This document shows positions 23,175 to 39,890 of a stretch of DNA of 64,000 nucleotides, piece after piece. The position numbers and the translations under genes were made by a program. Under the pieces are notes generated by a model. The model did no database searches. It had not been told where the DNA came from and was given only the letters and a program-made list of their open reading frames with translations. Positions within the stretch are counted from its first letter, which is position 1, and every line of letters begins with the position of its first letter. This stretch comes from Microbispora sp. NBC_01189 (GTDB lineage: Bacteria; Actinomycetota; Actinomycetes; Streptosporangiales; Streptosporangiaceae): positions 5,265,501 to 5,329,500 of the forward strand of contig NZ_CP108581.1 of the NCBI RefSeq assembly GCF_036010665.1, given 5' to 3'.

Positions 23175-24311
23175 GTGTCCAACGACTACTACGCGACCCT
23201 TGGCGTCCGGCGCGACGCCAGCCAGGAAGAGATCAAGAAGGCGTATCGCCGTCTCGCCCGGGAGCTGCATCCGGACGTGAACCCCGACCCGGAGACCCAG
23301 GAGCGGTTCAAGGAGATCAACCAGGCGTACGAGGTGCTGTCCGACGCGGGCAAGCGCCGCATGTACGACATGGGCGCCGATCCGTTCGCGAGTGGCGGCG
23401 GGCCGGCCGGGGCGGGCGGCTTCGGCGCGGGCTTCCCCTTCAGCGACATCATGGACGCCTTCTTCGGTTCCGCCGGCGGCGCGCGGGGTCCCCGCTCACG
23501 CGCCCGCCGGGGCCGCAACGCCACCATCCGGGTCGAGCTGGACCTCGCGGAGTCCGCCTTCGGCACCACGCGCGAGATCGTTGTCGACACGGCCGTGGTC
23601 TGCGACGTCTGCCAGGGCTCCGGGGCCGCGTCGGGCACCCACCCCGACACCTGCGACATGTGTCACGGGCGGGGCGAGGTCTCACAGGTCACCCGCTCGT
23701 TCCTGGGCCAGGTCATGACGTCCCGCCCCTGCCCTCAGTGCGGCGGGTACGGCAGCGTCATCCGGCACCCCTGCATTGAGTGCTCGGGCGAGGGACGGGT
23801 CCGGACCCGGCGCACGATCAAGGTGCGGATCCCGGCCGGCGTCGAGGACGGCACGCACATCCAGCTCGCGGGCGAGGGCGAGGTCGGGCCGGGCGGAGGC
23901 CCTCCGGGCGACCTGTTCCTGGAGATCGTCGAGCGGCCGCACCAGATCTTCGAACGCCGCGGCGACGACCTCCACTGCACCGTCCAGATCCCCATGACCG
24001 CCGCCGCGCTCGGCACCGTCCTGTCGGTCGACACCCTCGACGGCGCGGAGGCGATCGACGTGCGGCCCGGCACCCAGGCCGGTCAGGTCATCCCCCTGTA
24101 CGGAAAGGGCATCCAGCGGCTCAACGAGACCGGCCGGGGCGACCTGCTGATCCACGTGACCGTCGAGACGCCGACCAAGCTCGACCCGCAGCAGGAGGAA
24201 CTGCTGCGGGAGCTGTCGAAGCTGCGCGGGGAGGAACGGCCGCCCGGCAAGTTCACTCCCGGCCAGCAGGGCTTCTTCTCGCGCCTGCGGGACGCCTTCA
24301 ACGGCCGCTGA
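23175..24311 (+). CDS. dnaJ: Chaperone DnaJ (DnaJ2 type)
   Basis: Hsp40 co-chaperone of 378 residues that stimulates DnaK ATPase and holds substrates. The J domain (residues 1-68) has [20 protein letters not shown] and HPDVNPD with the essential HPD. A Gly/Phe linker follows. Four CxxCxGxG zinc motifs are [24 protein letters not shown] and CIECSGEG. The C-terminal beta domain has ILIPAGV-like [10 protein letters not shown] and [15 protein letters not shown] start directly after the hrcA stop, so co-transcribed under CIRCE control. The short 27-codon repeat frame follows 5 bp later. Confidence 0.96.
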
Positions 24312-24316
24312 CGCAC

Positions 24317-24400
24317 ATGAGCGAGCGGAGCGAGCGAATCGGTAGGCACAGTGCGTTTCGCGCATGCGACCCCGAGCCGCCAGGCGAGGGGGTGGCATGA
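24317..24400 (+). CDS. Repeated 27-codon coupler mini-ORF, copy A (before rsmE)
   Basis: ATG to TGA, 84 bases. The peptide starts MSERSERI and ends [11 protein letters not shown]. The same frame, same length and same stop context occurs at 39508-39591 before ureB. The two copies differ at 6 of 84 bases, one of them silent. The stop overlaps the rsmE ATG as ATGA, and the GAGGGGGTGGC near the end provides the ribosome site for rsmE. It begins 5 bp after the dnaJ stop. Whether the peptide or only its translation matters is unknown; it may be a dispersed repeat that inserts at gene junctions. Confidence 0.65.
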   Translation: MSERSERIGRHSAFRACDPEPPGEGVA

Positions 24401-25131
24401 GCGTTCCGGTGTTCCTGTCGGAGGCGGCCGGTCAGGCGGGGGACACGATCGTCCTCGACGGGCCGGAGGGGCGGCACGCCGCGTCGGTGCGCCGCCTGCG
24501 GGCGGGGGAGCGGGTCGACCTCACCGACGGCGCGGGCCGGGTGGCCGAGTGCACGGTCACGTCGGCAGGCAAGGACGCGCTGACCGCCGCGGTGCTCCGC
24601 CGGTACGAGGTGCCGCCCCCGCGGCCGAGGCTGGTGGTCGTGCAGGGCCTGCCCAAGGGCGACCGGGGCGAGCTCGCGGTCGAGATGATGACCGAGACAG
24701 GGGTGGACGTGATCGTCCCCTGGGCCGCCGCCCGCTGCGTCACCCAGTGGAAGGGCGACCGGGCCGGCAGATCACTCGCCCGCTGGCGGAGCACGGCGCG
24801 CGAGGCGGCCAAGCAGGCCCGGCGCTTCCACCTGCCCGAGGTGACCGAGCAGGCCACGACCGCGGGGGTCCGCTCGCTCGTCTCGGCGGCGGCGCTCGCG
24901 GTCGTGCTGCACGAGGAGGCCGCCGAGCCGCTGAGCCGCCTCACGCTGCCGGACGTCCCCGGCGACATCGTGATGATCGTCGGCCCGGAGGGCGGCGTCA
25001 CCGACGAGGAGATCGCCGGGTTCCGCGCGGCGGGAGCCGTACCGGCCCTGCTCGGCCCCACCGTGCTGCGCACCTCGACGGCGGGCGTGGCCGCGGCGGC
25101 CGTCCTGCTGGCCCGCTGCGGCCGCTGGTGA
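24397..25131 (+). CDS. rsmE: 16S rRNA m3U1498 methyltransferase RsmE
   Basis: SAM-dependent SPOUT methyltransferase of 244 residues that modifies U1498 in the decoding centre. An N-terminal PUA-like domain (DGPEGRHAASVRRLRAGERV) is followed by the knotted domain with VVVQGLPKGDRGELAVEMM, EQATT and the SAM-binding IVGPEGGVTDEEI and LGPTVLRTSTAGVAAA. ATG 24397 is chosen because an upstream in-frame ATG (24364) only adds codons from the repeat cassette. Coupled through ATGA to the preceding mini-ORF and so to the hrcA-dnaJ transcript. Confidence 0.94.
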   Translation: MSVPVFLSEAAGQAGDTIVLDGPEGRHAASVRRLRAGERVDLTDGAGRVAECTVTSAGKDALTAAVLRRYEVPPPRPRLVVVQGLPKGDRGELAVEMMTETGVDVIVPWAAARCVTQWKGDRAGRSLARWRSTAREAAKQARRFHLPEVTEQATTAGVRSLVSAAALAVVLHEEAAEPLSRLTLPDVPGDIVMIVGPEGGVTDEEIAGFRAAGAVPALLGPTVLRTSTAGVAAAAVLLARCGRW

Positions 25132-37416: not shown

Positions 37417-39135
37417 TCAGAAGAGGAAGTAGCGCTGCGCCATCGGCAGCGACTCGGCCGGGGCGGGCTCGATGAGCTCGCCGTCCACGTGTACGGCGAA
37501 GGTGTCGGGGTCCACCCGGATGTCCGGCAGGGCGTCGTTGAGGGGCATCGCGTCCTTGCGCCGGGCGCGTACGTCGGCCACCGGGGCCAGCCGCCTGCGG
37601 ACGGCCAGCCGGTCGGCGAGCCCGCCCTCCAGCGCGAGCGGCGCGACGAAGTGCAGCGACGTCGCCGCGGCGGTGACCGGGGCCGCGCCGAACATCGGGC
37701 GGGGCAGCACCGGCTGCGGCGTCGGGATCGACGCGTTCGCGTCGCCCATCTGCGCGTACGCGATGACCCCGCCCTTGAGCACGAGCTCGGGCTTGACCCC
37801 GAAGAAGGCCGGGCTCCACAGGACGAGGTCCGCGAGCTTGCCGGGCTCGACCGAGCCGATCTCCGCGTCGAGCCCGTGGGCGACGGCAGGGTTGATCGTG
37901 TACTTCGCGACGTACCTGCGGGCGCGCAGGTTGTCGGCCGGGCCGTCGCCGGGCAGCGCGCCCCGGCGGCGCTTCATGACGTGCGCCGTCTGCCAGGTGC
38001 GGATGACGGTCTCGCCCACGCGTCCCATCGCCTGCGAGTCCGAGCCGATCATCGAGATCGCGCCGATGTCGTGCAGCACGTCCTCGGCCGCCATCGTCGA
38101 CGGCCGGATCCGCGACTCGGCGAAGGCCAGGTCCTCCGGGATGGAGGGGTTGAGGTGGTGGCACACCATGAGCATGTCCAGGTGCTCGTGGTGGGTGTTG
38201 ACCGTGTGCGGCCGGGTCGGGTTCGTGGACGACGGCAGCACGTTGGCGTGGGAGGCCACCGTGATGATGTCCGGCGCGTGCCCGCCCCCGGCGCCCTCGG
38301 TGTGGTAGGCGTGGATCCCCCGGCCGGCGATGGCCCCCAGGGTCGACTCCACGAACCCCGCCTCGTTCAGGGTGTCGGTGTGGATGGCGACCTGCACGCC
38401 CGTCGCGTCGCACACCCGCAGGCACGCGTCGATGACAGCGGGGGTGGTGCCCCAGTCCTCGTGCAGCTTGAACCCCGAGGCGCCGGCCCTGAGCTGTTCG
38501 AGCAGCCCCTCCTCGCTGACGGTGTTGCCCTTGCCGAGCAGGGCCACGTTGATCGGGTACGCGTCCAGGGACTCCAGCATCCGGCCGACGTACCAGGTGC
38601 CGGTCACGGTGGTGGCCTTGGTGCCCTCGGCGGGCCCGGTGCCGCCGCCGACGATCGTGGTCACGCCCGAGGCGAGCGCCTCGTCGAGGATCTGCGGGCA
38701 GATCAGGTGGACGTGCGAGTCGACCGCCCCCGCCGTGACGATCTTGCCGTTGGCTCCGAGGATCTCGGTGGACGGGCCGATGACCAGATCGGGGTGGACG
38801 CCGTCCATCGTGTCGGGGTTGCCGGCCTTGCCGATGGCGACGATGCGGCCGTCGCGCACCCCGATGTCGGCCTTGACGACCCCCCAGTGGTCCAGGATCA
38901 CCGCGCCGGTGATGACGAGGTCGGCCGCGCCCTCGGCTCTGGTGGCGCGCGCCTGTCCCATCGACTCGCGGATGACCTTGCCGCCGCCGAACACCGCCTC
39001 GTCGCCGGCTCCGGCCGGCCCCATCGAGAGGTCCTCGGTCACCTCGACGTACAGGTCGGTGTCGGCCAGTCGCACCCGGTCGCCGGTGGTCGGCCCGTAC
39101 AGCGCGGCGTAGCGGGAGCGCTCGATGCTAGGCAC
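37417..39135 (-). CDS. ureC: Urease alpha subunit
   Basis: Catalytic subunit, 572 residues. The nickel ligands and catalytic residues are in [10 protein letters not shown] (HxH), GFKLHEDWG with the Lys that is carbamylated, [26 protein letters not shown], and the flap His in [10 protein letters not shown]. The Asp ligand is in [11 protein letters not shown]. Overlaps ureB by 8 bp. With UreA and UreB it hydrolyses urea to ammonia and carbamate in the cytoplasm, using urea imported by the adjacent transporter. Confidence 0.98.
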
Positions 39136-39511
39136 CCGTCGTCCTTTCGGTCCCCGCCGGGCTTTCGGTCCCCGTCGGTCTCTCGTCCAGGGGCCCGGCC
39201 CACTCGGGGCGCAGGCCGGGCACCACCCGTGCGCCCGCGAGTGGAACCAGCGTCACGTCGCGCTCCACGCCGGGCTCGAACCTGACGGCGGTGCCCGCGG
39301 GGATGTCGAGGCGGTGGCCCCAGGCCGCCTCCCGGTCGAACTCCAGACCGGGGTTCGCGGCGGCGAAGTGGTAGTGCGACCCGACCTGCACCGGCCGGTC
39401 CGCCGTGTTGACGACTCTCAGGGTGATCCGCTCCCTGCCGGGGTTCAGCGGCACGTCGCCCTCGCCGTACAGGATCTCGCCCGGCGCGCCCGCGCCGCTC
39501 GCCGCGCTCAT
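39128..39511 (-). CDS. ureB: Urease beta subunit
   Basis: 127 residues. Core motifs are [38 protein letters not shown] and GTAVRFEPG. The last ~25 residues ([18 protein letters not shown]) are low complexity. ATG 39511 overlaps the stop of the 27-codon coupler frame (ATGA). Separate ureA, ureB and ureC genes are the standard bacterial three-subunit arrangement. Confidence 0.95.
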
Positions 39512-39587
39512 GCCACCCCCTCGCCTGGCGGCTCGGGGTCGCATTCGCGAACCGCGCTGTGCTTATTGATTCGCTCGCTCCGCTCGC

Positions 39588-39591
<4 letters not shown>
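39508..39591 (-). CDS. Repeated 27-codon coupler mini-ORF, copy B (between ureA and ureB)
   Basis: Same 84-base frame as at 24317-24400, with peptide MSERSERI at the start and [11 protein letters not shown] at the end. Here both ends are coupled: its ATG overlaps the ureA TGA (ATGA) and its own TGA overlaps the ureB ATG (ATGA). GAGGGGGTGGC supplies the ureB ribosome site. The insertion separates ureA from ureB, which are normally adjacent, yet keeps continuous translation. No homology to known peptides is recognised. Confidence 0.65.

Positions 39592-39890
<299 letters not shown>

Follow-up and report, generated by a model that had tools for sequence, protein, structure and literature searches.

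A small, probably non-autonomous mobile element inserted at start codons in actinobacteria

The 84-bp unit that occurs twice in the window (the whole 64,000-nucleotide stretch of Microbispora sp. NBC_01189 analysed here) is a dispersed mobile element, and probably a small, non-autonomous one of actinobacteria. It is inserted exactly at start codons, with ATGA left on both sides, at five gene pairs. Taken as a whole, the data are probably best explained by a selfish insert, resembling the MIRUs of mycobacteria, that keeps translation of the downstream gene coupled and keeps its start locked until a mini-ORF inside the insert has been translated.

Two copies of the element in the window

Copy 1 (24317..24400, plus strand) is located between dnaJ (23175..24311, plus strand) and rsmE, a gene for an RsmE-type RNA methyltransferase (24397..25131, plus strand). 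Copy 2 (39508..39591, minus strand) is located between ureA, encoding the urease gamma subunit (39588..39890, minus strand), and ureB, encoding the urease beta subunit (39128..39511, minus strand). The original prediction placed two 84-bp copies at these positions, with 6 of 84 bases differing, and named the four genes. The copies are indeed alike at 78 of 84 bases (93% identity), the second being on the minus strand, and the gene names are backed by Pfam (DnaJ, RsmE-type RNA methyltransferase, urease gamma and beta). The E-values of the window copies in a search of their own genome were 1.1e-37 and 1.5e-29.

Each copy consists of a 27-codon mini-ORF, opening with ATG, and its TGA stop codon. 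As predicted, the stop of the mini-ORF overlaps the start of rsmE or ureB as ATGA at both copies, and at copy 1 this 3' ATGA (24397..24400, plus strand) is, judged from the sequence and from the empty sites described below, the second copy of the target ATGA. Copy 2 has ATGA overlaps at both ends, and the expected chain of ureA, mini-ORF, and ureB is present. The dnaJ stop codon (24309-24311) does not overlap the mini-ORF of copy 1 but ends five bases before it. The unit was also claimed to bring its own ribosome site, and GAGGGGGTGGC was found ahead of the ATG; the ribosome-binding site supplied by copy 1 is GAGGGGG (24386..24392, plus strand). The first 20 bases of copy 1 (24317..24336, plus strand), ATGAGCGAGCGNAGCGAGCG, form a head that is common to elements of many actinobacterial genera.

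Distribution across genomes and genera

In the genome of the strain (7.37 Mb, one contig) there are six near-full copies, together with a truncated tandem partner and, at 4118426, a shorter relative; the four near-full copies and the truncated one beyond the window pair have E-values of 2.1e-12 or better. Matches (E<=0.001) were detected in 14 of 15 Microbispora genomes, this one included, and at more than 20 places in three of them. Copies in head-to-tail arrays share ATGA, as do the three at G005:C1:114952-115186. At the family level, with four candidates scored per genome, 49 of 200 genomes matched (members of the genus included). The pattern of a head followed by ATGA was found in 53 of 345 genomes of the order, where the reversed pattern gave no matches, and in 2 of 396 genomes drawn from the phylum, one of them this genome. 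There are at least 119 stretches in named genomes. The matches listed comprise 80 loci, and the genera among them include Microbispora, Nonomuraea, Nocardia, Nocardioides, Aeromicrobium, Micromonospora, Catellatospora, Streptomyces, Flexivirga, and others. Of 301 genomes in the family to which G579 belongs, 32 carry the head with at most one mismatch, in a scan whose reversed control likewise gave some one-mismatch matches; among the listed places, only genera g74 and g319 have the exact head. Copies were picked by similarity or by an exact head, so intact copies are over-sampled. Within a single genome, non-tandem copies with unrelated flanks can reach 97.6% identity, which suggests fairly recent movement.

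The exact pattern was not found in viral contigs, phages gave no match, and the plasmid search returned a single partial match of 30 bases (NZ_CP058530.1:67232-67261, Halobaculum). This haloarchaeal plasmid stretch is 93% like the first 30 bases of the element, either by chance or as a parallel repeat. No autonomous parent was identified among 20 partial-match regions, all of which are variants of 108 or 111 bp, eroded copies, or heads that continue into a host gene. Rfam returned no RNA family at E<=1 for the 300 bases around copy 1. Both window copies were checked for inverted repeats of at least 8 bases; copy 1 contains none, and copy 2 has one 73% pair whose second arm reaches beyond the element. 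Neither window copy has terminal inverted repeats, which does not fit derivation from a MITE or DDE transposon.

Insertion at start codons

At the dnaJ-rsmE junction, 5 of 15 Microbispora genomes are occupied and 10 are empty. An empty genome (G003) and an occupied one (G012) are identical before ATGA and for eleven bases from ATGA on. The ureA-ureB junction of 15 Microbispora genomes contains one full copy, one 111-bp variant, and 11 empty sites, the remaining states being a head fused in frame to ureB and a degenerate spacer (a reading by eye, without a profile match). Occupied, eroded, and empty states are mixed among the 15 Microbispora genomes at the junctions before ribH (lumazine synthase) and ilvN (acetolactate synthase small subunit), two genes identified from Pfam. 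In Nonomuraea, a junction was read in 37 of 54 genomes: 26 of 30 loci are empty and four have an element or remnant (read by eye), and two of seven further loci are occupied. Comparison of empty with occupied sites gives a net change of about 80 bases plus a second ATGA. A separate observation at the ilvN junction (L227-L241) is that several element-free genomes have an ATGA-bounded spacer, which may be what erosion has left of an older element.

The preferred target is (C)ATGAG. G follows ATGA at 77 of 80 sites compared with 8 of 27 in the background, and C precedes it at 61 of 80 compared with 11 of 27. In other genera (Microbispora loci excluded) G follows at 50 of 57 sites compared with 21 of 52, and at 35 of 42 without possible tandem neighbours; both backgrounds, 27 and 52, are small. 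Just 4 of the 24 other CATGAG sites in the window look like starts, so start codons are enriched among insertion sites, through targeting or survival.

Of 101 terminal copies that could be evaluated, 94 have the downstream ATG in the coding frame, and in most copies the mini-ORF stops right at the former start codon. Among the other seven, three are followed by a further copy or mini-ORF, one stands 22 bases upstream of a gene, and three are decayed and apparently antisense. On the upstream side, 57 of 92 evaluable copies share an ATGA overlap with the end of a gene, an earlier stop precedes 23, the best frame of 11 lies on the opposite strand, and one reads through. The random-ATGA controls are weak (60% positive by the codon model, 47% by composition) and the argument therefore rests on the empty sites. 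In three Microbispora genomes (L055, L111, and L112), apparently at one site, the end of a sugar-kinase-like gene carries a decayed copy in seemingly antisense orientation; the neighbouring genes were examined in L055 and named by eye.

A hairpin predicted to close the downstream start codon

In the computed folds of both window copies, the downstream AUG is buried. The predicted 3' hairpin of copy 1 (24363..24399, plus strand) would pair the ribosome site and the rsmE start codon, as indicated by the fold and by covariation of the ribosome-site stem, and that of copy 2 (39510..39544, minus strand) is predicted from the fold to close the ureB start codon. The probability that the start codon is unpaired is 0.56 at ordinary ATGA junctions (background, n=87), 0.26 in the Microbispora set (n=102), 0.08 in Nonomuraea (n=28), and 0.14 in other named genera (n=62), with p<1e-10 against the background for each of the three sets. 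In genus g53, whose copies measure 72-75 bp, closure of the start codon does not exceed that of the background (n=11, p 0.26). Pairing of the element with the start codon that follows it is thus predicted for three of four sets.

Closure of the ribosome site was rejected as a common rule on grounds of accessibility. Relative to the background, the site is more open in Nonomuraea-type copies and in genus g53, and in Microbispora the ribosome-site window is only marginally more paired (p 0.035) in one of two accessibility comparisons and not more paired in the other. The ribosome-site stem of Microbispora-type copies has paired changes in 25 cells compared with 10 in shuffles (58 of 65 copies), and one of its pairs is UA in 33 and CG in 21 of 58 copies. 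The alignments used for covariation contained 58 of 65 distinct 84-bp copies (seven family copies were left out) and, for the second alignment (A4), 26 of 30; the stem tested was named from a six-copy consensus. The start-codon stem and its neighbour, as named from that consensus, are 96% paired. The consensus fold of 58 Microbispora-type copies lacks a start-codon stem. Individual folds of six copies had z-scores from -3.86 to -0.66, of which two are unremarkable (L003, -0.66; L005, -1.43). A 5' hairpin was predicted in single copies and in six, is missing from the 58-copy consensus, and was dropped.

In the mechanism that we propose, ribosomes from the upstream gene would translate, or re-initiate on, the mini-ORF, and stop-start re-initiation would carry them from there into the downstream gene. 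The hairpin would keep ribosomes from starting independently at the ribosome site of the insert and would be opened by a ribosome translating the mini-ORF. The downstream gene would then stay coupled and the insertion would be nearly harmless; on the best reading, the insert survives at start codons because downstream translation remains coupled. The original suggestion of a mobile or dispersed cassette placed so that operon translation can persist, presumably by coupling, agrees with the copy number and the empty sites at five gene pairs.

In Nonomuraea-type copies the hairpin arm is matched to the individual host gene

In Nonomuraea-type copies, the left arm of the hairpin, which lies inside the mini-ORF, has the form N9'..N5'TCAT and is complementary to ATGA and to host positions 5-9 of the copy's own gene (codons 1-3). 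The fractions that are Watson-Crick paired at host +5 to +9 in 36 non-tandem copies are 0.89, 0.92, 0.94, 0.97, and 0.72, compared with 0.54, 0.82, 0.46, 0.27, and 0.30 expected after re-dealing the flanks; at host +10 the fraction is 0.36 compared with 0.27 expected, which is near chance. The match is significant by permutation (p<=0.0002, n=36), and again when likely orthologues are collapsed (p<=0.0002, n=18). This test includes 36 of 39 Nonomuraea-type copies, with three tandem ones left out and the copies of G251, G272, G275, G276, and G278 outside the set; the arm was anchored by a fixed offset, and three coreless copies (L391, L394, and L397) were retained. These three are related, and a long palindrome in the body replaces the usual arm.

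The excess of pairs is small in the other sets: 2.80 compared with 2.46 expected for the Microbispora 84-bp type (p<=0.0002, collapsed 0.0032), 2.70 compared with 2.54 for the 81-bp type (p 0.035), and 1.91 compared with 1.47 for 46 copies from other genera (p<=0.0002). The last comparison used crude anchoring, with about nine of its 46 rows anchored in the head, and left out Microbispora, Nonomuraea, and Planomonospora loci. The start is more closed with a copy's own flank than with swapped flanks (0.066 compared with 0.159). The identity of 75-bp copies is 0.58-0.95 within groups and 0.70 on average between them.

A bolder reading, possible although somewhat short of probable, is that this actinobacteria-wide element partly rewrites itself for each host gene, gaining on or after insertion a 9-base antisense copy of codons 1-3 that would fold over the start and make the gene dependent on translation of the mini-ORF. 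The arm may have been kept matched after insertion, through selection or through template-switch repair of the near-palindrome. We lean towards such maintenance, with matching at the moment of insertion as the main alternative.

Under that alternative, which we consider rather unlikely, the arm would be set during insertion, either as a guide that base-pairs with the target or as a copy of the target strand (e.g., by fold-back priming). Several observations fit it: complementarity drops sharply after host +9, the preferred target CATGAG can pair with a generic interior CTCATG, and the window copies, with no inverted repeat of at least 8 bases in one and a single pair reaching outside in the other, are unlike a DDE transposon. 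In addition, the arm follows the gene at the Nonomuraea site, since the codons of the occupied genomes G236 and G271 recur in the empty genomes G273, G245, and G277. However, the arms differ among copies, so one fixed inherited guide cannot explain them and a rewriting step would be required. Furthermore, where two copies precede the same gene, their differences can come as matched pairs, which fits later maintenance or possibly independent insertions: codon 3 is GTT in G246 and GTG in G276, and the arm is AAC and CAC, respectively; matched differences are also seen between L377 and L399, L386 and L400, and L382 and L392.

A less likely alternative, with perhaps a minor chance of being correct, is that the arm is a by-product of replication in which intrastrand template switching perfects the CTCAT..ATGAG palindrome, with no translational use. 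Quasi-palindrome correction of this kind occurs in E. coli, and it would account both for an arm that follows its flank and for the other long palindrome in L391, L394, and L397. However, template switching alone leaves the kept frame, the ribosome site, and the closure of the start codon in three of four sets unexplained, and it does not account for a match that ends after codon 3.

The mini-ORF is kept open without sign of selection on its peptide

Among 155 distinct copies, 125 are full-length, and the frame from the first ATG/GTG to the last TGA is open in 111 of these (the other 14 lack an intact in-frame mini-ORF). It is open in all 65 distinct 84-bp copies and all 30 distinct 81-bp copies with intact ends. 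In named genera, ATGA ends 76 of 78 short head-ORFs, and the length is a multiple of three in 72 of 81 pattern matches where it was free to vary from 65 to 92 bases, both counted among the matches listed. Frame retention in Microbispora-type length variants was dropped as an argument, as 11 of 22 full copies other than 84 and 81 bp are not multiples of three.

These open frames might be taken to mean that the element is a gene cassette with a functional 27-residue peptide as its product, and the original prediction of a conserved coupler ORF finds no support as a claim about a conserved peptide. No sign of purifying selection on amino acids was detected, either in pN/pS (0.81 in the coding frame, 0.79 and 0.82 in the shifted frames) or in codon-position entropies, which are nearly equal in the 84-bp type (0.52, 0.57, and 0.56). 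The middle is read in different frames in the 84- and 81-bp subtypes, other genera have unrelated peptides behind MSERSER, and Pfam gave no match at E<=1 to the two mini-ORF peptides examined. MSERSER itself is kept in other genera because the head DNA, which was the search criterion, is kept. A functional product is therefore very improbable, and the sequence data suggest that the peptide is without function.

At L163 (ureB of G009), L179, L180, and L189, eroded heads of the element have seemingly turned into N-terminal tails of host proteins: UreB, a 30-kDa subunit of NADH dehydrogenase, a response regulator of the LuxR type, and an ABC ATPase begin with MSERSER or MSERRER. In several copies from Micromonospora, Catellatospora, Nocardioides, and others (L242-L321), a head-like GAGCGAAGCGAG motif recurs in the tail, in the same orientation as in the head.

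Discussion

The window copies are close in sequence and place, but a chance duplication or ordinary recombination between two operons of the same genome is refuted, its likelihood being negligible, by copies that are numerous, lie at unrelated genes, and span many genomes, and by empty sites with exact borders; after the genome and its relatives had been searched, the copies proved to be neither just two in number nor unlinked to start codons.

The closest known system is the mycobacterial MIRU, to which the element is likened by descriptions and not by sequence. The original prediction knew of no described family, which needs correcting: a review that cites Supply et al. 1997 already presents MIRUs as apparently mobile units, inserted at start codons and spaced at -4 (PMC12548453). 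Another paper gives units of 77 and 53 bp and says that they are confined to M. leprae and the M. tuberculosis complex (PMC4213456). With a shared ATGA these lengths would, by simple arithmetic, become 81 and 57, both multiples of three; the 81-bp subtype of the present element has a 77-bp period. Further likenesses are a short repeat carrying an ORF that ends in a four-base overlap with the next start, insertion at start codons (here from the empty sites at five gene pairs), and tandem copies with a shared ATGA. The element differs in occurring in many actinobacterial genera, compared with the limit to M. leprae and the M. tuberculosis complex stated for MIRUs (PMC4213456), and in the start-closing hairpin and gene-matched arm described here. 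By these descriptions, the kind is known and the element is a variant beyond its stated range with an added feature. A literature search at listing level, with subscription papers mostly outside it, returned no such family beyond mycobacteria and named no gene-matched arm. The predicted start-closing hairpin and the gene-matched arm appear to be new features.

Other systems share parts of this arrangement. In IS200/IS605 elements internal guide sequences pair with the target, and in IS110 elements a bridge RNA does so; guides of both types are fixed for each element. The present element resembles them in having no terminal inverted repeats, a short target, and an internal stretch complementary to the target, but its arm varies with the host gene, and we do not claim membership. 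MITEs, REP/REPIN, ERIC, and BOX are short, dispersed bacterial repeats apparently without an enzyme of their own. The element is likewise short, dispersed, and apparently enzyme-less, but it differs in lacking terminal inverted repeats (in the two window copies) and in lying at start codons, mostly in frame. In hairpin-gated translational coupling and leader uORFs, a start region is shut until an upstream frame is translated. The start region behind the element is likewise predicted to be closed until the mini-ORF is translated, with the difference that this gate arrives with a mobile element and at many unrelated genes.

MIRUs serve in tuberculosis typing. To our knowledge, the route by which MIRU-like units spread and the reason for their position at start codons are an open question. 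With a family beyond mycobacteria that offers many empty and occupied sites, both questions become testable in harmless laboratory actinomycetes. The element seems, moreover, to have left some host proteins with N-terminal tails, and automated gene calling may set starts wrongly near its copies. A start lock that is specific to each gene points to an unusual compensatory evolution of RNA or to an insertion reaction that copies its target; on the bolder reading, if true, a mobile element would equip each host gene with a riboregulatory lock of its own.
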